In this document: positions 37,266 to 49,576 of the stretch, piece by piece
How positions within the stretch are numbered: position 1 is the stretch's first letter
How the letters are laid out: each line of letters starts with the position of its first letter
NCBI GenBank assembly: GCA_913056235.1
Contig: CAJXMW010000004.1
Location: forward strand, 248,001-312,000
DNA: 64,000 nt
Direction of reading: 5' to 3'
Origin: an uncultured Fodinibius sp.
Lineage (GTDB): Bacteria; Bacteroidota; Rhodothermia; Balneolales; Balneolaceae
Program-made: the position numbers and the translations under genes
The notes under the pieces: model-generated
Database searches by the model: none
What the model was told of the DNA's origin: nothing
The model's input: the letters and a program-made list of their open reading frames with translations, nothing else

Positions 37266-39128
37266 CTACTTCAGCTCAAGAATGAGCGCTGATCGTCCCG
37301 GCACGGTCATTTCATCCAGCGAATAGGTTTTGCCCGTAATCACATCGGTACCTTCAGTAAAACCTTGCGTGCGTTCGTAGAAACGATCGGTGTCAAGCTC
37401 AGTAGCGTTCTCATTTTTATTGAGGATGACCATCACTGTTTTGTCCTTGTTGTAGCGAAAATAGACATAGAATCCCTCGTGCTTGGGCGCATAATGCATC
37501 AGCTTTCCGTCGTGAATAATTGGGTTATCTTTGCGCCAATTGAGGAGCTTTTTCACAAAGTCTTGTGCCTGTTGTTTTTTATCCGAAAGCCCGTTTCCGC
37601 TAAAGGCATTTTTGGTATCGGATGACCACCCGCCGGGAAAATCTTCCCGGATTTGCCCGTGGTCGTGATGTTTTTCATTACTCATCAGGATTTCAGTGCC
37701 GTAATAGAATTGCGGAATGCCCCGCATCGTCATTATATAGGTCATACCCATCTTAAAGAGATCATAGTCTTGATTGACTTGGCGGTAAAAACGATCCATG
37801 TCGTGGTTGTCGGCAAATATCACAAGATCCTTGGGATTAGGATAGACATAATCGAAGCTGAGTGTCTCATACAGATTTACAAAGCCCGTTCCCCAGCTTT
37901 CTTCTTTCGTGAGAGCATTAACCAGCGATGTTTGTATAGGAAAATCCATCAGGCTGGGCAGGCATGAGCCGTAATCGGTGGGAAGTTTGCTGCCGCGTTG
38001 CCATTTGGCCAGCACCAGTGGATCAACGCTCCATTCTTCGCCCACAATATTGAAGTCGGGATACTCCTCCATGATGCGGCAGGTCCACTCTTGCATAAAC
38101 TTTTTGCCGGCATAGGGATGGGTATCGTGACGGATACCGCGCAGACCGGCATATTCAATCCACCAGAGGCTGTTGTAGATCATGTAATCGGCCAGCAGGG
38201 GGTTACTCTGATTTAAGTCTGGCATTGATCGTACAAACCAGCCGTTGGTAAATTTCTTCGTGTCGCTGTCCGAGGCGTAGGGATCGTGCAGCGTAGTGCG
38301 CCGGTGGTTGGTTTGTTGATACTCACCGGGATAATGTACCCAGTCGGAGGTGGGGGGATCCTGCAGCCACCAGTGATTGGAACCCGCATGGTTCATAATC
38401 ATATCCATGATGAGCTTGATGCCACGCTCTTCGGCTTTCTCGCTAAGCTCCTTGTAGAGCTCATTACTGCCAAAGCGGGGATCTACTTTATAGTAGTCGG
38501 TAGTGGCGTAACCGTGATAAGAGGCTTCTTTCATAGCATTTTCAAGCACGGGATTTAGCCAAATCGCCGTAAAGCCCATCTTGTCGATGTAGTCCAGGTG
38601 ATTGATAATGCCTTGAATATCGCCGCCATGCCGGCCGTAATCATCATCCATGTCTAGCGAGTCAGCATAACCGGCTACTTCATCATTATCGGGATTGCCA
38701 TTGGCAAAGCGATCAGGGGTAATCAGGTAAATGACATCGGAGGAGTTAAAGCCTTCGCGGCTGGCAGAGCCGTCTTCTCGCTCTTTAAGTTCATAGGTAT
38801 AGGATAGTTCTTGCTGCTCGTTGTTCATCAGCGAAATATCCATTGTGCCGGCCACGGTCGTATGATCAATATGTAGATATACAAACAAGTAATTATCGTT
38901 ATCCACCCGCTCTACGCGCTCGATATCTACACCGTCATAGTCTATTTTGGGGGACAGCTCACCGATATTGTCGCCATACATCATGACCTGCAGTTCGGGG
39001 TTTTCCATCCCAATCCACCAGTTGAGCGGTTCTACTCGCTCAATGGCGTACTCTTGGGCACTAATAGATCCAAAAAGAAAAAAGATGAAGACAAATGAGA
39101 GAAATAAAGAACGAAAAAAGTATTTCAT
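37266..39128 (-). CDS. Periplasmic GH13 cyclomaltodextrinase/neopullulanase-like (SusA type)
   Basis: 620 residues with signal peptide (SISAQEYAIE). An N-terminal beta domain (about 22-120) of the Cyc-maltodext_N type is followed by the barrel (DVIYLITPDRFANGN). Region I is MIMNHAGSNHWW, region II GIRHDTHPY (Asp nucleophile), region III IVGEEWSVD (Glu) and region IV ADNHDMDRF. It lacks a lipobox, so it probably works free in the periplasm, like SusA. Last gene of the reverse sus operon, 12 bp after the FnIII lipoprotein gene. Confidence 0.93.
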   Translation of the reverse strand: MKYFFRSLFLSFVFIFFLFGSISAQEYAIERVEPLNWWIGMENPELQVMMYGDNIGELSPKIDYDGVDIERVERVDNDNYLFVYLHIDHTTVAGTMDISLMNNEQQELSYTYELKEREDGSASREGFNSSDVIYLITPDRFANGNPDNDEVAGYADSLDMDDDYGRHGGDIQGIINHLDYIDKMGFTAIWLNPVLENAMKEASYHGYATTDYYKVDPRFGSNELYKELSEKAEERGIKLIMDMIMNHAGSNHWWLQDPPTSDWVHYPGEYQQTNHRRTTLHDPYASDSDTKKFTNGWFVRSMPDLNQSNPLLADYMIYNSLWWIEYAGLRGIRHDTHPYAGKKFMQEWTCRIMEEYPDFNIVGEEWSVDPLVLAKWQRGSKLPTDYGSCLPSLMDFPIQTSLVNALTKEESWGTGFVNLYETLSFDYVYPNPKDLVIFADNHDMDRFYRQVNQDYDLFKMGMTYIMTMRGIPQFYYGTEILMSNEKHHDHGQIREDFPGGWSSDTKNAFSGNGLSDKKQQAQDFVKKLLNWRKDNPIIHDGKLMHYAPKHEGFYVYFRYNKDKTVMVILNKNENATELDTDRFYERTQGFTEGTDVITGKTYSLDEMTVPGRSALILELK

Positions 39129-39140
39129 AGTATGGTTTAT

Positions 39141-39575
39141 TTATTCAGGGCGGTCTGGCGGATCCGAAAAAGGCGTGATCTCCAGCTGGTTAGAGGTTCC
39201 GCTTTCGTTATCGTTTTCGTCCACAGCCGTAAGCCGATAGTAGTAAGTGGTTCCGTTTTCCAGGCCGCTATCTGTTAAGTTTGTTTCTTGAATGAGGTCG
39301 GAGGCATTAACAGGAGTCATATCTGATATGTCCGAAAAACTACTGGTTGATCGGTATAGATTATAACCGCTCAGGTCATTCTCACTATTGGCATCCCAGC
39401 TTAGATCAATTTTCTGATCTCCGGAATTTCCATGCAGATTCGCCGGAGATGAAGGGGCTTCGTCAGTACCGTTTCCGCCGTTCCCGGAACCGGTAGATGA
39501 CCCTCCGCAGGAAGTAATTACAAAGATACTACAGAGTATTAAGACTATTGAGGGGATTAAAAAACTGCGTTTCAT
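39141..39575 (-). CDS. Small lipoprotein with one fibronectin type III domain
   Basis: 144 residues. Lipobox FVITSCGGS, a Gly/Ser/Asn linker, then a single FnIII domain (KIDLSWDANSENDLSGYNLYR, GTTYYYRLTAVDENDNES). No enzymatic or carbohydrate-binding signature beyond FnIII. Between two GH13 genes in the sus operon, it may be a surface spacer or glycan-binding lipoprotein. Function unknown. Confidence 0.83.
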   Translation of the reverse strand: MKRSFLIPSIVLILCSIFVITSCGGSSTGSGNGGNGTDEAPSSPANLHGNSGDQKIDLSWDANSENDLSGYNLYRSTSSFSDISDMTPVNASDLIQETNLTDSGLENGTTYYYRLTAVDENDNESGTSNQLEITPFSDPPDRPE

Positions 39576-39586
39576 AAAACTCTTGG

Positions 39587-42500
39587 CTATTTGATTAAGG
39601 TCATTTTTTGGGTAAATCGCTGATCTCCAATCTTGAAAACAGCAAAATACATCCCACTTGCCCGCTGACTCCCATCAAAGGTAATAGTATGGGTACCGGC
39701 TTGTCGAACTTCATTGTTGATGAGCGTGCTTACTCGCTGTCCAAGTATGTCATATATTTCAACACGTACTTCGGTTTGTTCCGGCAGCGAAAATCGCAGG
39801 GTCGTGGATGGATTAAAGGGATTAGGATAGTTTGGTTGTATCTTTATTTCTTTGGGAAGAAATTCTTCCTGCTGCTGGTTGATATATCGCGTATCGCCCA
39901 TTACCAGCATCATCGAAGTTTTCCCTTTTTCAGGGATGATTTGAACTTCTTTTTTCTTGCTCAGATTGTATTTGCGACCGGATTCCTTATCTAACAGTGC
40001 CAGTTGAATATCGGGATTATTGTCCCATCCTTCAGTGCTTATGGTCACCGGTTGTTTGGGAGTAGCCGACAGAATCACTTCTAATTGGTGCCCATCGCTG
40101 TTTTGATGTTGGTAAACATGTGCTAAGGAGCTGGTTCGCGAGGATTGTTGCTCGTTATCGGCTGAAAATCGCAGTGATGCCCCTTCAAACTTCGCAGGAG
40201 GTGCTACTATATTATTAGGTATTTCGCTAGTGCTAACCAGCGTCAGACTGCTTGATGATGTTTTTTCGCCATCAACGCGGGTAATAAGCCGGATTTGGTT
40301 CTGATTCTCTTTTGTTTGCTTTTTGGATGCAGACGACTCGTAAGGAATCTGCAAATTGTCTAATCCCTGGTCATTTAAAAAGTAAACAGCTTCACCGGAA
40401 CGGGCAGAGGCAAATGTTTGGGCTTCACTAAAGGATCCATTAAAGCTCCAGATGGATTGGAGATTACCGCCGTTAGCCTCCGAAACTTTGCTCCAGCTTA
40501 CATCGGTGTGCAATGGATTCGAAATTATATTCCACCCGTCGTGCAGTGGTATGGAAGCCTGATTATTGTCATTGAGTTCTACGGTAGGGACGGTCTGGTC
40601 GTAAGTGAAATCTTCTTTGCTGGTAACCCAGAAACCGTTGCCGGCATTCATGGTAAAGGTCGAACTGCCATCGTATTTTACCATATAGTCATCGTCTTCT
40701 CCATTATCCCAATATGCTTGCCAGTCAACACTTGGATCTCCATTTAAAACATCGGCAAGTGGTTCTTCTGTCTGGCCGGGCAGGGCAACCAATCGGTAAT
40801 CCTGCGGTGTAGAGGCCCCATCAAATTTCTTTGCAATATCCACGTTTATCTGCGTGGGGACAAAATCGAGAAGTCCTTTTTCAGGGGTTTCAAACTTTTT
40901 GGTGGTGTAGATATGAAATTCACCGGCACTCATTGCAATCGTCGTATCGGTATTGCTTACCGACAGGGTATCACCGGAAAAGAAATCGTACCAGTCGCCG
41001 GATTGCGTAAACTGCGGCTGCATATCGGTGTCCGTAACCCCAAAATTACCGGCAATGGTAACATCCAAATCGGGATGGGTGATGGTAATATGCTTATTGG
41101 TGCTATTTACGTTCATAGAAACATTGGAGCTTTCTGATGTAAAGGCCTCGTGAGAATTGCGCAGCCGGATGAGTGCTTTATAAGTATCATAGAGTTTTTT
41201 TCTATTCTCCTCCTGATAATACTCCCACCGGATTGGCTTTTCGCCCGTACGCCCGTTTTGATTGATATCAACCTCATAACCAAGCTCTCCAAATTGCCAC
41301 AGCATTTTGGGTCCGGGCACAGTGAAAAAGAAAGCAGAAGAGAGCTTCATACGATTCAACGCGGTGTTTAGCTCCGTGATATCATAAGAACCGCTGTTGT
41401 TACTGTTTCCAAAATTGAGGTTTTCGTACATGAGACGCTGTTCGTCGTGGCTCTCCATATAACCCACTAAATTCGGGTTACTCCAGTTTCTGTTTTTATA
41501 GTAAATTCCAGCGAAATTACTTTCATTCTCGTATCCCATGGAGGCTTGTTTGTAATTGTGGTGCATATTGCCCCAGAGTAGCATTCCGGAATTGGAAAGT
41601 TCTTGTTCTTCGCTATTTGCAGTTAAGTGCTCAAGGATCACATACGAAGAGTCATCCACCGCCCACTGCTGGTCGGCCATGCGTTTTAGGATCCGTATCC
41701 GGTCCTCATCACGAGCCCATCCATCTCCGGCATTTTGCGTAAAGCCTTTTGTAAAATCGAAGCGGAATCCGTCGGTATTAAATTCCTGTAGCCAGTAGCG
41801 TGTTACGCGGTCAACATAGTATTGTGTGGCAGCCGCTTCGTGATTAAAATCATATCCCCAGGAATATTCTTGATTTGGTGAACTTACATTAAGGTACGGG
41901 TTTTCGGTTGTAGGCTGACCGTAATCACCTTCGTTCCACAGTCGCACCAGGGGTGATTGTCCATAGACGTGATTGAGCACAATGTCTAAAATCACAGCCA
42001 TTCCCCGTGAATGAGCTTCATCGATGAATCTTTTGAGATCATCGGCAGGCCCGTAATACTTGTCAGGAGCCAATAGAAAAGCTGAATTATATCCCCAGCT
42101 GACATTCCCTTCAAACTCCATGACCGGCATTAATTCGATCGCATTCACGCCCAATCGGTCGAGGTAGTCGAGGGTATCGGTTAATGTTTTATAATCATGA
42201 TTTTCAACAAAGTCCCGAACCAGCAGCTCATAGACCACCAGGTTTTCCTTATCCGGTCGATCATAATTTTGGTACTGCCATTGGTAATCCGTTTTTCCGG
42301 GCTGTAGAACACTTACAGAAAAATCTGTTTGATCGCCTGGATACGGTTTTAAATCCGGATAAGTTTGTTCGCTAATATACTGGTCATCGGGTTGCAGGAC
42401 TTTTTCGGAGTAGGGGTCAGCCACGCGAATTTCGCCATCTACCAAATATTGAAACCCATATTCCTGACCTTGATTCAGCCCGTCGATTTCGATCCAGTAG

Positions 42501-43423
42501 TAGCTGCTGTCGGCATTGACGGTTTCTTTGTTCATAAAATACTCGGGCTGCGGGGTCCAGTCGTTAAAATCCCCGAGCACGTAAACAAACTCTTTGTTGG
42601 GGGCGAAGAGCGACAGGCGAACGGTGTTATTATTCACATAGGTGATACCGTCTTGCAAGTTAGCCGGTCGGGCTTGTTCATTGACATCGGGATTCACGAC
42701 CATTCTCTTAGATTGCTCGTCGCTGTTGGTCCCGTCGCTGCCGGTTAGCCGAAGAGTAAAATTCCCTGCATTTTGGGCGCTGTAGGTATATTCCAGAGTG
42801 TCATTATTGACTTGTTGTACCTGCTGATTATCGATATAGAGCGTCAATGTTACGTTATTTTCTGTGGAGGCAATGCCTTGTATATCGACCGATACGTTAT
42901 TCTCATAAAAGGAGAGGGTATCCTGTGGTTCAGTGATTTTTACGTTGAACTGGTTTTGATAGACATCAGCATAAATATCAGATTCGTCCACGGTTTTTCC
43001 CTCTTTGGAGCCGTCGCTGTTGCGAAAAACAAAAGCCATCTGCTCAATGGTTTCACTTTCGGAAGCCCCGTAGTATTCCCGGATCGAAGGTGAGATTTCC
43101 AGTTTATACATATTTGGTTCGCCCTGAACCTGCTCCAACCTGTTTTTATCCGTGTTGGCCTGGGATTGATTACTGCCGTCGGGCCAAGGAGTGATGACAT
43201 GCTGCCAGTCGGATCCGTCGCTGCTTGCTGCAGTGATAAGCCCGGTATGGGCATACACATCGCCATTGTGATCTTCGAGACCTCTGTTCCCCTCAGTAGC
43301 ATCAAAATAAATTGTGACGGATTCATCCGCCGTATAAAAATCGGGTTCGGTTGTTATAACTTGGCTATAGGAAAGGGAAGTAGTGGAAAAGAAGAAGAGG
43401 AGTATAGCTATTAGGCGTTTCAT
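39587..43423 (-). CDS. Secreted GH13 alpha-amylase with type IX secretion tail
   Basis: 1278 residues from the ATG at 43423 (a start 13 codons upstream is less likely). Order: signal peptide; two N-terminal beta domains; a CBM48-like module (about 245-335, YVLGDFNDWTPQPEYF); GH13 barrel (about 395-780) with region I DIVLNHVYG, region II GFRFDF (Asp near 556), region III ILEHLT (Glu near 598) and region IV MESHDEQR; further beta domains (GWNIISNPL); and an end of about 85 residues with YPNPFNPSTT and IYDILGQRV, the type IX sorting signal. It is the probable surface starch degrader of this locus, replacing lipoprotein SusG. Confidence 0.94.
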   Translation of the reverse strand: MKRLIAILLFFFSTTSLSYSQVITTEPDFYTADESVTIYFDATEGNRGLEDHNGDVYAHTGLITAASSDGSDWQHVITPWPDGSNQSQANTDKNRLEQVQGEPNMYKLEISPSIREYYGASESETIEQMAFVFRNSDGSKEGKTVDESDIYADVYQNQFNVKITEPQDTLSFYENNVSVDIQGIASTENNVTLTLYIDNQQVQQVNNDTLEYTYSAQNAGNFTLRLTGSDGTNSDEQSKRMVVNPDVNEQARPANLQDGITYVNNNTVRLSLFAPNKEFVYVLGDFNDWTPQPEYFMNKETVNADSSYYWIEIDGLNQGQEYGFQYLVDGEIRVADPYSEKVLQPDDQYISEQTYPDLKPYPGDQTDFSVSVLQPGKTDYQWQYQNYDRPDKENLVVYELLVRDFVENHDYKTLTDTLDYLDRLGVNAIELMPVMEFEGNVSWGYNSAFLLAPDKYYGPADDLKRFIDEAHSRGMAVILDIVLNHVYGQSPLVRLWNEGDYGQPTTENPYLNVSSPNQEYSWGYDFNHEAAATQYYVDRVTRYWLQEFNTDGFRFDFTKGFTQNAGDGWARDEDRIRILKRMADQQWAVDDSSYVILEHLTANSEEQELSNSGMLLWGNMHHNYKQASMGYENESNFAGIYYKNRNWSNPNLVGYMESHDEQRLMYENLNFGNSNNSGSYDITELNTALNRMKLSSAFFFTVPGPKMLWQFGELGYEVDINQNGRTGEKPIRWEYYQEENRKKLYDTYKALIRLRNSHEAFTSESSNVSMNVNSTNKHITITHPDLDVTIAGNFGVTDTDMQPQFTQSGDWYDFFSGDTLSVSNTDTTIAMSAGEFHIYTTKKFETPEKGLLDFVPTQINVDIAKKFDGASTPQDYRLVALPGQTEEPLADVLNGDPSVDWQAYWDNGEDDDYMVKYDGSSTFTMNAGNGFWVTSKEDFTYDQTVPTVELNDNNQASIPLHDGWNIISNPLHTDVSWSKVSEANGGNLQSIWSFNGSFSEAQTFASARSGEAVYFLNDQGLDNLQIPYESSASKKQTKENQNQIRLITRVDGEKTSSSSLTLVSTSEIPNNIVAPPAKFEGASLRFSADNEQQSSRTSSLAHVYQHQNSDGHQLEVILSATPKQPVTISTEGWDNNPDIQLALLDKESGRKYNLSKKKEVQIIPEKGKTSMMLVMGDTRYINQQQEEFLPKEIKIQPNYPNPFNPSTTLRFSLPEQTEVRVEIYDILGQRVSTLINNEVRQAGTHTITFDGSQRASGMYFAVFKIGDQRFTQKMTLIK

Positions 43424-43450
43424 AGCGATGAATTCAGTAGCAGGTTGTAA

Positions 43451-43484
43451 ATAAAAGCCCACCCATCACAACGATGAGTGGGCT
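43451..43484 (-). terminator. Terminator inside the sus operon, after susE
   Basis: Read on the minus strand: AGCCCACTCATC, 5-base loop, GATGGGTGGGCT (one G-T wobble), then TTTTAT. It lies between susE and the large amylase gene and could lower expression of the downstream enzymes relative to susCDE. Confidence 0.75.
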
Positions 43485-43521: not shown

Positions 43522-44646
43522 TTAGTTTGCAGCCTCCATTTCGACGACGTAGTCATTAATATTTACTTTGATGTAATAACTGCCAGCACTTCCGGTGAAT
43601 TGGAAGTTGCTATCGCCATCGTTGGCATTTTCAAGCAGCTCATCAATGGTGCCGCCGTTATTTGCAAAGTACGGATAGTTGTAGCTATCTGGTGCCCAAC
43701 CGGCCTGTCCAAAGAATCTGAATGCCCCGTCTTGGAAATCAGTAGTTGCTTCAAAGACACCGGGTTGGACAAAAGTCATTTTGACACTTTCGCCACTTCC
43801 AGGAGTGTCCCATGCACCTGTACCCGAGCCAGTCATATACATTACGGGTTCATCAACGGCTTCCATCTCAACATTGTAGGTATCAAAGTTAACTGTAATT
43901 CGATACCAACCCGTTGAGCCGGTAAAACGGAAATTGAGGTCACCGTCATTGGCATTTTCAAGCATTGGATCAATAGTACCGCCGTTATCAGCAAAGTATG
44001 GATAATTCCAGTTTTCAGCACTCCAGTCGGCTTCTTTAAAGAACCTAAAGGCTTCACCGTTGGTAAATTCAGCCATTGTTGAGTACACATTAGGTTCTGT
44101 GCTGGGAGTAATTACGGCCTGATCCAGCGACCATCCCTTGAGTGCAGAACCTATCATATAAATAGGAGGGAAAGAGGTCTGGAACGGAGTGACCGATATT
44201 GTTACCGGCGATGAAACGACATTTTTTGTCGAATCAGTGTTAATAGAGGCGGTAACACGAAGATGTACATTGTGCGACTTTCCCCCAGCCAGTGCCATTG
44301 TCAGCAGCATTTGGTTAAGGCTGCCAACTGTAACGCCCACAGAAGTCTTCTGTGTAGAAGCAATTTGTTGAGCGTTGGAAAAATCACTGGAGGCTCCCAG
44401 CTCCACATTGTATGTGGGAGCTGAGTTAAATCCATAGTCAGGTTCTGACCATTGGATGGTCATTACCGTATCGCCTGCCTGATCACGGTTAAGCTCATAG
44501 CTTTGACCGTCTTCAGGAGAATTGATAGCCGGGGCTCCCGGGTCGCTGGTATTGGCGACGGGCCCCATCTCTGCTTTATCGCAGGAGCTAAGTGCTGCGA
44601 TACTAACAATCGATAATAGAATTAGAGCTAGTTTCTTCATAGTCAT
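43522..44646 (-). CDS. susE: SusE/SusF-type starch-binding outer-membrane lipoprotein
   Basis: 374 residues (a start two codons later, MKK, is equally possible). Lipobox AALSSCDKA, a SusE N-terminal Ig-like domain (about 35-150), then two tandem starch-binding modules of about 100 residues that are close copies: FRFFKEADWSAENWNYPYF and FRFFGQAGWAPDSYNYPYF, each followed by NGGTID and LENANDGD. Works on the cell surface with SusC and SusD. Two modules, as in SusE, against three in SusF. Confidence 0.92.
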   Translation of the reverse strand: MTMKKLALILLSIVSIAALSSCDKAEMGPVANTSDPGAPAINSPEDGQSYELNRDQAGDTVMTIQWSEPDYGFNSAPTYNVELGASSDFSNAQQIASTQKTSVGVTVGSLNQMLLTMALAGGKSHNVHLRVTASINTDSTKNVVSSPVTISVTPFQTSFPPIYMIGSALKGWSLDQAVITPSTEPNVYSTMAEFTNGEAFRFFKEADWSAENWNYPYFADNGGTIDPMLENANDGDLNFRFTGSTGWYRITVNFDTYNVEMEAVDEPVMYMTGSGTGAWDTPGSGESVKMTFVQPGVFEATTDFQDGAFRFFGQAGWAPDSYNYPYFANNGGTIDELLENANDGDSNFQFTGSAGSYYIKVNINDYVVEMEAAN

Positions 44647-44670: not shown

Positions 44671-46575
44671 TTAATAACCCGGGTTCTGAGTCAAGTTGGG
44701 GTTCGAGTTAATGTCAGACACGGGAATAGGGAACACATTGTACGTATCATTTGTGCTGTTTCCGTTTTGACTGTTGCCTTTCCAGGCCCAGGTATAATCA
44801 GAACCGGTAAACATGCCGAATCTTCTGAGATCTGTTCGACGGTGGCCTTCCCAGTACAGTTCGCGGCCCCGCTCGTCGATGAGGAAGTCGAGCGTCAGCT
44901 CAGAAGAGCTGATGTTTTGGTCTTGACCATTATACGCTCGTTCTCGCAGGTCATTAACCAACCGAACGGCTTTGTTCATGTCCCCGCCATCTCCTCCGCG
45001 AACGACTGCTTCAGCATACATCAAGTAAACATCCGCCAGTCGAAACATCGGGAAGTCGATATCCACAAATTCCAGATCGGAACCGGGTTGACCATTTGTG
45101 GTGATATTTTTCCACTTGGAGATAGCATAGCCATTGGTAAATTCGGCTAAGCTTGGGATATCTTTGTTTTGACCGCTGATATACAGGGTATTACGTTCGT
45201 TGGTCTGTTCGATAGTATACGTGTTGTTATTGGTGTTCACCATGAACGTATGGCGTCCTGATTTCGGAATCACAATATTGGATCCCCCAGCTTCGTAGGT
45301 TCCATCGCCTTCGTTATCACCCCAGCTTTCATCCCAGTCACGTTCCGGTGTGAGTTGTATTTCAGCACCGGCTGAACCTACATATACAGTTCCGCGGTAG
45401 ATACCGTCATTATTGTCATCAACGAGGGGAGGAGCATTCCCCGGTGTCCAGTTGGAACCGTAACCACTCCCTGACTGGTAACTGCCCGGTACATAAATTT
45501 CAGGGTCACCATCGGGATTGCTGGTTGTTTCGCCCGGCGATCCGAGGGGCACAAACTTATCCGCAAATTGCGGGGTCACTCGGTGACCGGCCCAGGCTGA
45601 GTTCAGCCCGAAGTCAGTAATGTCCATATCACCGCCAACGGCTGCATGAGCAATAAAGGTAGTGCCGCCGTAGGTTTGCGTATTTCGTCCGTCAAAGGCG
45701 ATTGGGAAGATGACCCCATTGGCAATGTGATTATCTGCCAGGAAGAGATTCCCGTAATCACTTTCAAGCGTGTAACCGCCTTGCTCAATAACTTTGTCAG
45801 CATACGTAATGGCTTCAGTGTAGTGTGGTTCGCCAGTGTAAACTTCCGCATTCAGGTACAACTTGGTGAGCAGTGTCCAGACTGCTGCTTGATCGGCTCG
45901 AGCATACTCGTTTTGCTGAGGAGCCGGGAGTTCGCTCTCAATAGCTTTGAGCTCGCTTTCTATGTAATTAAAGAGCTCTTGATCACCAACCGGTTCCGGT
46001 TGGTACGCTCCTACGCCGTTTTCTTCCGTCACAAACGGTACACCACCGCCGTAGAAATCGAGTGCATGCCAATAGCTGAGTGCCCGAAGAAATCGAGCTT
46101 CGGCCATGTATCCCTGAACAGTGGAGTTGCTGTTGCCTTTGGCATTACGAATAAATTCATTTGCCATGGAAATTTCGTAAAAGACGCGGCTGTACATCCC
46201 CATAACAAAATCATTGGAAGCACCCCACGACTGAAAATTAAATTCTGGAAGACCGGGGTCATTCCAGCCGACAACTGCTTCGTCTGTGGGTATCTCTTGC
46301 GAGACCCACATTTGGCGAATGTAACTTGAGAATCCCTCATCAATACCTTGAATATCGGGATTACCAGCGGGACCTTGCTGTCCCGTGGTAGCAAAACCGG
46401 CATATAATTTAGCAAGTACCTGCTGATAGTCTTGTTCATTCTCATACAGCGAGGCCGAGGTCACTACGTCGTCGTCAATAGGTGTGGTATTCAAACTGTC
46501 CACACAGGACGTAACTGTGGCCACCATCAACACCATTAGTGCGATCGCAACTATTGAATATTTGTTGTTAAACAT
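44671..46575 (-). CDS. susD: SusD/RagB outer-membrane lipoprotein with inserted SusE-like module
   Basis: 634 residues. Lipobox TVTSCVDSL, TPR-rich SusD core (MAEARFLRALSYWHALDFYGG, then the C-terminal LIDERGRELYWEGHRRTDLRRFG). Typical SusD proteins are about 500-550 residues. Here residues of about 361-457 read like a SusE/SusF starch-binding module (YVPGSYQSG, DGIYRGTVYVG, LTPERDWDESWGD, GGSNIVIPKSG), inserted between SusD core segments. It forms the lid on the SusC channel and binds alpha-glucan; the insert probably adds a binding site. 95 bp after susE in operon order (susD precedes susE). Confidence 0.93.
   Translation of the reverse strand: MFNNKYSIVAIALMVLMVATVTSCVDSLNTTPIDDDVVTSASLYENEQDYQQVLAKLYAGFATTGQQGPAGNPDIQGIDEGFSSYIRQMWVSQEIPTDEAVVGWNDPGLPEFNFQSWGASNDFVMGMYSRVFYEISMANEFIRNAKGNSNSTVQGYMAEARFLRALSYWHALDFYGGGVPFVTEENGVGAYQPEPVGDQELFNYIESELKAIESELPAPQQNEYARADQAAVWTLLTKLYLNAEVYTGEPHYTEAITYADKVIEQGGYTLESDYGNLFLADNHIANGVIFPIAFDGRNTQTYGGTTFIAHAAVGGDMDITDFGLNSAWAGHRVTPQFADKFVPLGSPGETTSNPDGDPEIYVPGSYQSGSGYGSNWTPGNAPPLVDDNNDGIYRGTVYVGSAGAEIQLTPERDWDESWGDNEGDGTYEAGGSNIVIPKSGRHTFMVNTNNNTYTIEQTNERNTLYISGQNKDIPSLAEFTNGYAISKWKNITTNGQPGSDLEFVDIDFPMFRLADVYLMYAEAVVRGGDGGDMNKAVRLVNDLRERAYNGQDQNISSSELTLDFLIDERGRELYWEGHRRTDLRRFGMFTGSDYTWAWKGNSQNGNSTNDTYNVFPIPVSDINSNPNLTQNPGY
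45205..45495 (-). other. Inserted SusE/SusF-like starch-binding module within susD
   Basis: About 97 codons. The order PGSYQ, WTPGNAPPL, DGIYRGTVYV, LTPERDWDESWGD, GGSNIVIPKSG, FMVNTNNNTYTIE is that of a SusE/SusF CBM. The flanks return to SusD sequence on both sides without frameshift. Boundaries are by eye, within about 10 residues. Confidence 0.75.
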
Positions 46576-46600: not shown

Positions 46601-49576
46601 TTAAAAGTTCAGGCTCAGTCCAAGAATGAACGTACGAGGTCGTGGGTAGACATTGTTGTCTATACCTCCAAAAACCTCCGGATCAAGCCCGCTGTAATTG
46701 CTTATTACAAAAGCGTTTTGGACGGTCGAGGATATCCGCAACGATTTAACCTGGTTAAACAGGTTATTGAAAGTGTATCCAACCGTGATATTATCCATTC
46801 GCAAAAACGATGCATTTTCAACGTAGTGGTCAGAGTGATATTGGGCCGTACTAAACTGCACATCTTGAATGTCTGTGATCGCATTATTTAGATAACCCTG
46901 AGAGTTGTACATGAAATTGTAGACCGTATGATTCGATGCTACGTTGTTGTACACATAATTACCGATGTTAGCCCGTGCTGAGAAAGATGCATCCCAGTTT
47001 TTGTATTCCAGTCGGGATGAAAGGCCAAACGTCATATCTGGTGACGGGCTTTCATATCGGTACTTGTCATCTGCCGTAATTTGTCCGTCGTCATTTCTAT
47101 CAACATAGACGCCGTCCAAAGGATTTCCATTCTCATCGTAAACCTGCTCATAGACGTAGAATGAACTTCTTGGATAGCCTACACTGTGAATTTGGATGGT
47201 GTTGCCAACACCGCCGGAAATCCCACCCGTTTCAACGCCAATATAATCTTCGGCGTCAACATTGGTCAGCTTCGTAATCTCATCCTGGTTGTGCGAAGCA
47301 TTCAAACCAATTTCCAGGTATGCATCTTCGGTAGATATAACACGTCCTGTGACGCTGAATTCTACGCCTCGAACTTCAAGAGTACCGATGTTCGACAGAA
47401 TGCGATTTGTGAAGTTCGTTCCTGCCGGTACCGGAATTACGTTTAATAGGTCATTTGTTTCTCGATAGTATGCTTCAAGAGAACCGACCAATCGATCGTT
47501 AAAAAATCCGTAGTCAAGTCCTACGTTATACGTAGTGGTTTCTTCCCACTTGAGGTTCTCATTGTAACCTTCCGGTCGGAGAGTGGTAATGTACTGATCT
47601 CCAAATCGGTATCGGGCCGTTGGTTCACTATATGTATATTGCGGCAAGTACGGATAGTTACCTTCGTTGATACGCTGCTGACCGGTTACACCATATCCGA
47701 GTCGAAGTTTTAACTGAGTAATTGCATCAACATCTTGCAAGAACGACTCTTCGTGCATTTTCCATGCCAGCGCTGCAGAAGGGAAGAGGCCCCAGCGATT
47801 TTCTTCCGAAAAGCGGGAAGTTCCATCCTGTCGTAAAGTAGCTGTCAGCAGGTACTTATTCTTATATGTATAATTGGCGCGTCCAAAGAAGGATACAATG
47901 TAATGTTCGGTTTCGTAGTCTGTATCCTCATCAACTGCTAAGGTATCTGAAGTATTGTAGTTGGTTACATAGTTGGACCCTTGCTCGTAATGATGCTCCC
48001 AGGAATAACCGCCGGTAACATCAATTTTACTGTCAATAGAAGATAACTCTTTCTTATAATTCAGGTAGAAGTCCAGCAGTTCATTTTCTTTCCGTTGTTC
48101 GTAACTGGTGCGTTCGCCATTGGGTTGACCTTCACCCGTATAAGCAAAGGCTGCCTGGTCCGTAATTTTGATACTCCCGTTGCTAACGTCAGAATAGTCA
48201 TATCCCATGTTAAGCGTGGCCGAAAGATTAGAAACAAACGGCATGGTATATTCGAATTTGGCATTACCGATTGAACGATAGACCGTAGATTCGTCCACCT
48301 CTTGCTCTAGCAATGCCAGTGGGTTGGCCGGGGCAATGTCGATTGGGTTATCGTTTTGATCTGTCCAGGCGAAATAATCACCAAAGTCTTCACCTACTGG
48401 ATCTTGAACCGGTTGGGTAGGATCAAAGGAGATAGCAGATCCAATAGCACCTGTATTGGCAAATCGGTTGTCAACCCGCATGCCTTTCAGGTTAAGATCC
48501 ACCTTCAGATCATTGTCTAAAAAGGATGGATTTACAGCAATGTTACCAGTCAGCCGGTCCATTTGAGATGTTTTAAGAATACCTCCATTACCGACGAATC
48601 CTAAAGACACACGGTAGGGCAGATTTCCAGCTGAACCTGTAAAGCTCAAACTGTGGTCCTGACTAAAAGCATTTTTAAAAATCTGATCTTGCCAGTGAGT
48701 GCTTTTATCACCCAGATATTGTGTTCCTGATTGTCCAAACTGTTCATCAATTACTGTTCTGAACTCACCGGCTGAAAGTACATCCAGCTCGTCAGCTCGT
48801 GTTTGGTAGGAGGCTTTACCCGTATAATTAACAGATAAGTCTTGTCCTTCCGAACCGCGCTTGGTGGTAATGATAACAACACCGTTAGAGGCACGTGATC
48901 CATAAATGGCAGTTGCAGAAGCATCCTTAAGGATAGAGATAGACTCAATATCATTAGGATTGATCGAATTCAGGGGATCCCTCATGCCTGAAACGCCGCC
49001 GCCATCCAGAGGCACGCCGTCTACAACATACAACGGATCATTACTTGCCGACAGGGAAGATCCACCGCGAATACGGATGGTAGCTCCACTACCGGGGGCG
49101 CCGCCGCCAGAAGTTACAGTCACTCCCGCTGCTTTACCCTGAAACAGTTCCTGAGGAGAGGTGATGGCTCCCTCGTTAAAATCACTAGAACTTACCGAGG
49201 TAACTGACCCCGTATTGTCGTCTTGTTGCTGCGTGCCGTACCCGATTACAACAACATCTTCGAGTTGTTGTACATCAGGCGACATTTCAATATTGATGGT
49301 AGACCGACCCTGAACTGGGACTTCTTGTTTTACATATCCGATATACGAAAACACCAGCGTATCTTGGGCTGATGGGACTCGGAGACTGTATTGTCCGTCT
49401 GTACCAGCAGAAGTTCCTCGGGTGGGCATCCCTTTTACAGTAATGTTAACCCCCGGTAGTACTTCTCCTGTTTCAGCATCGGTTACCGTTCCTGAAACGT
49501 TTGTCTGTGCCAGTCCGGGTAGTGTAAGACCCAGTACCAGGCATGACGTAATAAGTAGCTTTTTTATAGGTATCAT
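46601..49576 (-). CDS. susC: SusC-type TonB-dependent outer-membrane transporter
   Basis: 991 residues. Signal peptide (GLALPGLAQ-like end), carboxypeptidase-regulatory-like domain (about 25-100), TonB-box region LEDVVVIGYGT, plug domain (LQGKAAGV-like LFQGKAAGVTVTSGG, IRIRGGSSLSASNDPLYVVDG, AIYGSRASNGVVIITTKRG), then a 22-strand barrel ending in FILGLSLNF. Imports bound maltodextrins together with SusD. First gene of the reverse operon, controlled by the two palindromes upstream. Confidence 0.96.
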   Translation of the reverse strand: MIPIKKLLITSCLVLGLTLPGLAQTNVSGTVTDAETGEVLPGVNITVKGMPTRGTSAGTDGQYSLRVPSAQDTLVFSYIGYVKQEVPVQGRSTINIEMSPDVQQLEDVVVIGYGTQQQDDNTGSVTSVSSSDFNEGAITSPQELFQGKAAGVTVTSGGGAPGSGATIRIRGGSSLSASNDPLYVVDGVPLDGGGVSGMRDPLNSINPNDIESISILKDASATAIYGSRASNGVVIITTKRGSEGQDLSVNYTGKASYQTRADELDVLSAGEFRTVIDEQFGQSGTQYLGDKSTHWQDQIFKNAFSQDHSLSFTGSAGNLPYRVSLGFVGNGGILKTSQMDRLTGNIAVNPSFLDNDLKVDLNLKGMRVDNRFANTGAIGSAISFDPTQPVQDPVGEDFGDYFAWTDQNDNPIDIAPANPLALLEQEVDESTVYRSIGNAKFEYTMPFVSNLSATLNMGYDYSDVSNGSIKITDQAAFAYTGEGQPNGERTSYEQRKENELLDFYLNYKKELSSIDSKIDVTGGYSWEHHYEQGSNYVTNYNTSDTLAVDEDTDYETEHYIVSFFGRANYTYKNKYLLTATLRQDGTSRFSEENRWGLFPSAALAWKMHEESFLQDVDAITQLKLRLGYGVTGQQRINEGNYPYLPQYTYSEPTARYRFGDQYITTLRPEGYNENLKWEETTTYNVGLDYGFFNDRLVGSLEAYYRETNDLLNVIPVPAGTNFTNRILSNIGTLEVRGVEFSVTGRVISTEDAYLEIGLNASHNQDEITKLTNVDAEDYIGVETGGISGGVGNTIQIHSVGYPRSSFYVYEQVYDENGNPLDGVYVDRNDDGQITADDKYRYESPSPDMTFGLSSRLEYKNWDASFSARANIGNYVYNNVASNHTVYNFMYNSQGYLNNAITDIQDVQFSTAQYHSDHYVENASFLRMDNITVGYTFNNLFNQVKSLRISSTVQNAFVISNYSGLDPEVFGGIDNNVYPRPRTFILGLSLNF

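Follow-up and report, generated by a model that had tools for sequence, protein, structure and literature searches.

Bacteroidota import glycans mainly through SusCD transporters, with glucan capture normally left to the separate SusE/SusF lipoproteins. The window, by which we mean the whole 64,000-nucleotide stretch of Fodinibius DNA analysed here, contains a susC-susD-susE-GH13 operon whose SusD is 634 residues long (Table 1). This locus raises the question of whether a SusD can carry a capture module of its own, where such a module came from and what it does on the lid of SusC. A sequence-only reading had proposed that the SusD core is interrupted by a SusE/SusF-type carbohydrate-binding module (CBM), and the 634-residue open reading frame and the motifs quoted for it are indeed present in the sequence.

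Table 1. Features of the operon and of its SusD, in window coordinates.
Feature	Position	Strand	Description
susC	46601..49576	-	TonB-dependent SusC/RagA transporter, 991 aa; TIGR04056 784 bits
susD	44671..46575	-	634 aa starch-type SusD lipoprotein with inserted module
SusD core part 1	45550..46575	-	residues 1-342; phmmer alignments to 3ck7 and 3jys
flexible linker into insert	45505..45549	-	residues 343-357; pLDDT <60 around 341-350; missing from insert-free orthologues
inserted A-type SusE/SusF (X25-like) module	45202..45504	-	residues 358-458
SusD core part 2	44671..45201	-	residues 459-634 and stop codon
susE	43522..44646	-	374 aa; SusE N-terminal domain (PF14292 3.9e-19) and two modules, sub-type differs from insert
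GH13 alpha-amylase family enzyme	39587..43462	-	CBM48 and C-terminal sorting domain; PF00128, PF02922, PF18962
small fibronectin-like (Fn3-like) lipoprotein	39141..39575	-	conserved in operon; orthologues in G010, G005, G004, G009, 60-70% identity
second GH13-like glycosidase	37266..39128	-	homologue of first GH13; sister-operon orthologues 72-77%

The protein is a member of the SusD/RagB family. It scored 138.4 bits against the SusD_RagB C-terminal domain (PF07980, gathering score 23.1), and its fold, the susC directly upstream and a lipobox-like VTSC motif at C24 agree with this. Against NF033071, the exception-level NCBIfam model of starch SusD, it scored 435.4 bits, below the curated cut-off of 725, and thus it is a starch-type SusD only by homology and by its site residues, outside that model. 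Using an alignment to B. thetaiotaomicron SusD (3ck7; the chain number plus 24 gives the B. theta number) we found that D73, R81, W98, Y296 and W320 correspond to D79, R87, W104, Y302 and W328 of the window protein, while N101 is changed to aspartate (D106). We take these positions, from established knowledge, to be the starch-site residues of B. theta SusD. With the confidence that we place in our explanation as a whole, which is good, we assign the operon, from a Fodinibius/Aliifodinibius-type member of the Balneolaceae, to starch/glycogen utilisation and regard the window SusD as its alpha-glucan lid. Close relatives among named records were Aliifodinibius, Fodinibius, Rhodohalobacter and Gracilimonas. 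Across the sister operons the length of the operon GH13 varies from ~950 to ~1290 aa (L040:7100-9967 versus window 39587-43462), and not every operon encodes the stretch that separates its catalytic part from the C-terminal sorting part.

Both structural references align to the window SusD in two pieces, 3jys to residues 44-338 and 452-634 and 3ck7 to residues 48-311 and 473-634, with the middle skipped by phmmer, so the core is interrupted and then resumes as had been proposed. Comparison with orthologues that lack the insert puts its limits at residues ~343-459 (window ~45199-45549), of which the module itself occupies ~358-458 (45202-45504); residues 361-457, named earlier, are the core of the module. 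Pfam family PF16411 (SusF_SusE) covers residues 369-474 with an E-value of 1.2e-6 and 29.3 bits (a second figure is 8.6e-7 and 29.8 bits), in both cases above the cut-off of 27.5, and a profile built from SusE modules only gave the insert 91.8 bits versus 11.2 for the best of 1000 shuffles. The pullulanase X25 family PF22058 scored 25.8 bits on the insert alone (1.2e-5), just below its cut-off of 27. Since a phmmer search of the PDB with the lone insert returned antibody noise only, the search called for a profile built from both inserts and SusE modules, which, against all PDB sequences, matched pullulanase 2wan (2.6e-4) and SusF 4fe9 (0.0074). A Pfam scan of the SusD frame found no SusE N-terminal domain (PF14292), which indicates that only the module was taken from SusE, and PHROGs gave no match. 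These results confirm that a module of the SusE/SusF type (X25-like), ~100 residues long, lies inside a starch-type SusD. By alignment the insert starts ~15 residues past W328, the equivalent of B. theta W320, which would place it on the rim of the SusD glucan site.

An AlphaFold2 model of the window SusD (55-sequence alignment) had a mean pLDDT of 90.2, with the blocks of the insert mostly at 87-97 and an entry linker of low confidence at about 341-350. Strands were predicted within the insert at 359-361, 383-385, 392-399, 404-406, 434-436, 440-447 and 452-457. When superposed on 3jys, the SusD core of the model matched 458 residues with an rmsd of 1.6 A (Z 51.9). The model thus predicts a separate beta domain beside an intact SusD fold, and not the refuting outcome that the sequence-only reading had named, in which residues 361-457 belong to the ordinary SusD fold. 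Foldseek and VIA-align, run with the whole model, listed SusDs only and so are silent on the fold of the insert itself. In a model of a two-module SusD from Neolewinella (mean pLDDT 81) extra strands were seen in both modules, parts of which are of low confidence.

The insert was found in 7 genomes, including the window, among 58 relatives, and an insert-free orthologue, 60-74% identical, was found in 6. Several of the insert-free orthologues come from the same genus and stand in the same operon as the window SusD; judged from their sequences, those of the same genus are a natural empty site. Insert-free proteins have a short loop of DN type at the slot, for example KFDTDNDGRAMF. A survey of homologues had been suggested, and the insert proved to be absent from most SusDs: 12 of 40 starch-SusD genomes in a class sample carry it, all within one family, and in an even sample of the phylum (394 genomes, 101 with a starch SusD) 13 of the 101 carry an A, B or A-B insert, where A denotes a module matching a YVPGxYQ-type profile and B one matching a WGxIGxAT-type profile. 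Other lineages use the same site for A, B, A-B or A-B-B arrays. Among the SusDs of 80 named contigs and further genomes the slot held no module in 59, A in 13 plus the window (14), B in 9, A-B in 41 and A-B-B in 1, counts that are not frequencies because the contig search puts long matches first. The median gap at the slot was about 9, 120, 109, 211 and 329 residues for none, A, B, A-B and A-B-B respectively, and the position of the slot is identical in all insert forms. The content of the slot is therefore quantised across Bacteroidota. A-only inserts occur in Balneolaceae, B-only inserts in Flavobacteriaceae (Aureibaculum, Lutibacter, Polaribacter) and A-B inserts in Saprospiraceae, Lewinellaceae, Prolixibacteraceae, Lentimicrobiaceae and others.

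SusE proteins mostly have the arrangement N-A-B, with N-B-B-B in flavobacteria. We considered the insert as a replacement for SusE and rejected this, since SusE still adjoins SusD in nearly all insert carriers; the insert instead adds to SusE. The window SusE does have two repeats after its N-terminal domain, as had been noted, but they are of another sub-type than the insert and did not match the A or B module profiles. Both the window SusE (43522-44646) and the SusE of relative G010 carry two modules of a MYMTGSG.../NYPYF sub-type where other Balneolaceae SusEs have A-B modules, a pattern that looks like an exchange of SusE modules in the window/G010 sub-lineage.

In a tree of SusD cores the Balneolales form one clade in which inserts are both present and absent, with 3 changes. 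In the A-module tree a single clade (100/97) unites the Balneolaceae inserts; it lies in a starred set (96/95) whose other members are all SusE A modules, and the A modules of A-B SusDs fall apart from them. The Balneolaceae insert may thus be a copy of an A module from a SusE of that lineage. This agrees with the earlier claim that the module was taken from a SusE/SusF gene, although the present operon SusE was rejected as donor: it has the other module type, and the sole A module detected in the window genome is the one in SusD. An earlier or another SusE of the lineage would then have been the donor. The B-only inserts of flavobacteria have moderate support (SH-aLRT 90-93, no star) for a place among the SusE B modules of the same group. 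Taken together, repeated capture of modules from SusE appears to be the best reading of these trees; the modules offer ~100 columns, too few to settle one versus several captures.

Under a single origin, an ancestral Bacteroidota SusD would instead have received an A-B pair at the slot in one event, leaving A-only and B-only forms as remnants and the insert-free SusDs within insert-bearing clades as full losses. Constraining all SusD A modules to one clade was not rejected (AU p = 0.149), and the shared slot position in every form fits a single filling as well. We nevertheless regard this account, which concerns origin only, as rather unlikely, since the Balneolaceae inserts group with SusE A modules away from those of A-B SusDs, the flavobacterial inserts sit among B modules of their own lineage's SusEs, and insert-free sequences are numerous. 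Returning to repeated capture, a more general proposal is that alpha-glucan SusDs preferentially accept starch-binding modules of the neighbouring SusE in the loop after their conserved starch-site tryptophan, and that such insertions took place on at least three independent occasions (Balneolaceae, A; Flavobacteriaceae, B; Saprospiria/Bacteroidia, A-B or A-B-B), which produced lids with their own glucan tether that couple capture to lid movement. We put this forward tentatively, as a proposal that could almost as well be right as wrong.

The most likely role of the insert would be that of a glucan tether on the SusC lid. One SusE/SusF-type module in the short loop behind the conserved starch-site tryptophan (B. 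theta W320) would bind alpha-glucan from the rim of the lid and keep the glucan chain near the SusD/SusC opening as the lid opens and closes, so that glucan capture would be physically coupled to the transporter. This explanation as a whole, an alpha-glucan SusD lid with an inserted module that tethers glucan, we consider probable. Carbohydrate binding by the insert is suggested by its family membership and by its conserved aromatics, among them the tryptophans W376 and W414 of the window SusD; inserts and SusE A modules have both retained the conserved aromatics and glycines. Purifying selection on the insert is seen in the pairs for which dS can be estimated (dN/dS 0.05-0.25), many other pairs being saturated. 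Identity to relatives G010 and G002 is 54-58% for the insert and 67-80% for the SusD core, which shows that the insert evolves faster. The widely conserved FKFT motif reads IQLT in the window insert (IQIT in G002), so a possible ligand lysine is missing. This FKF lysine is kept in most relatives, and its absence here leaves room for weak or altered binding; it is also hard to see what a further module would gain where SusE is kept alongside.

These last points bear on a different role, in which the SusE-derived insert is a protein-contact or spacing element, for example one that docks SusE or the surface GH13 to the lid, and starch binding has been lost or reduced. The change of FKF to IQL, the faster evolution of the insert relative to the core and the retention of SusE beside the insert-bearing SusD would all suit such a role, as would the finding, as given by the title of Foley et al. 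2018 (cited in PMC10316084), that B. theta SusE aids uptake independently of starch binding. However, the module keeps its aromatics and glycines, FKF is intact in other inserts, and the A-B and A-B-B arrays resemble added avidity, and thus we judge a contact or spacing role improbable. That the 634-residue length reflects an ordinary long SusD loop with no domain, as B. theta SusD with its own longer loop of about 36 residues (chain 313-348 of 3ck7) might suggest, is hardly credible, as it is refuted by the profile matches, the separate predicted beta domain and the empty-site orthologues. The tether remains our preferred role.

Compared with known systems, the B. thetaiotaomicron SusD (3ck7, 551 aa) and the B. 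vulgatus protein 3jys have the fold of the window SusD (Z 48-52) and, like it, belong to a susC-susD pair, and 3ck7 also shares its starch-site residues, but neither has an inserted CBM; the loop at the insert site is ~36 residues long in B. theta SusD and ~10 in 3jys. SusE and SusF (PF14292 and PF16411; SusF 4fe9) are separate surface lipoproteins in which the same CBM type follows an N-terminal SusE domain, whereas in the window the module is embedded in SusD. The X25-type module of pullulanases (PF22058, 2wan), a weak profile match to the insert, is attached to an enzyme. The alpha-glucan SusDs of marine Flavobacteriia share the ligand residues of B. theta and occur in looped and open forms that differ by ~17 residues near the site (PMC11093988); the variation described there is in a loop, which may or may not correspond to that of the window slot, and not in an inserted CBM. 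In levan and dextran utilisomes an SGBP, a GH and the SusD lid act together at the SusC mouth (PMC7618045), but in these the SGBP, a separate protein, bears the glycan-binding module, and the SusD lid is plain. Our search of the open-access literature turned up no SusD that had been described with an inserted CBM. For the hand-over of glucan from SusE/F to SusD, models of stable and of transient assembly are in competition (PMC7618045), and nature offers a test of this capture-to-lid hand-over in a SusD with a built-in SusE module whose sisters within the genus are insert-free. The repeated use of one loop also marks a SusD site that tolerates whole domains.

Several other arrangements were seen in the survey. 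Two Flavobacterium-like starch SusDs (L166:1317-3188 and L167:1753-3624) have an insert of ~88 residues at the same slot which matched no Pfam family and neither the A nor the B profile, and is thus another insert type. In L126:3031-4863 an unrelated insertion of ~80 aa (79-aa gap), TVTDVAEGTVQVGQYLSGTGI..., was rejected as a slot insert because it lies at a different SusD site. A 1425-aa frame (L165:5479-9753, G180) was likewise rejected as a SusC-SusD fusion, being an overlapping read-through in high-GC DNA with SusC in another frame. Where a locus has an A-B SusD but no N-A-B SusE, there is a protein of ~600 aa made up of five B modules, usually encoded on the opposite strand, upstream of susC (L169:727-2505, L170:10308-11999, L090, L092, L101, L109, L111, L112, L116 and L120). 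The one from L169, which was scanned against Pfam, has a Por_Secre_tail sorting domain, suggesting that the five-B-module protein is probably a secreted multi-CBM counterpart of SusE/F.
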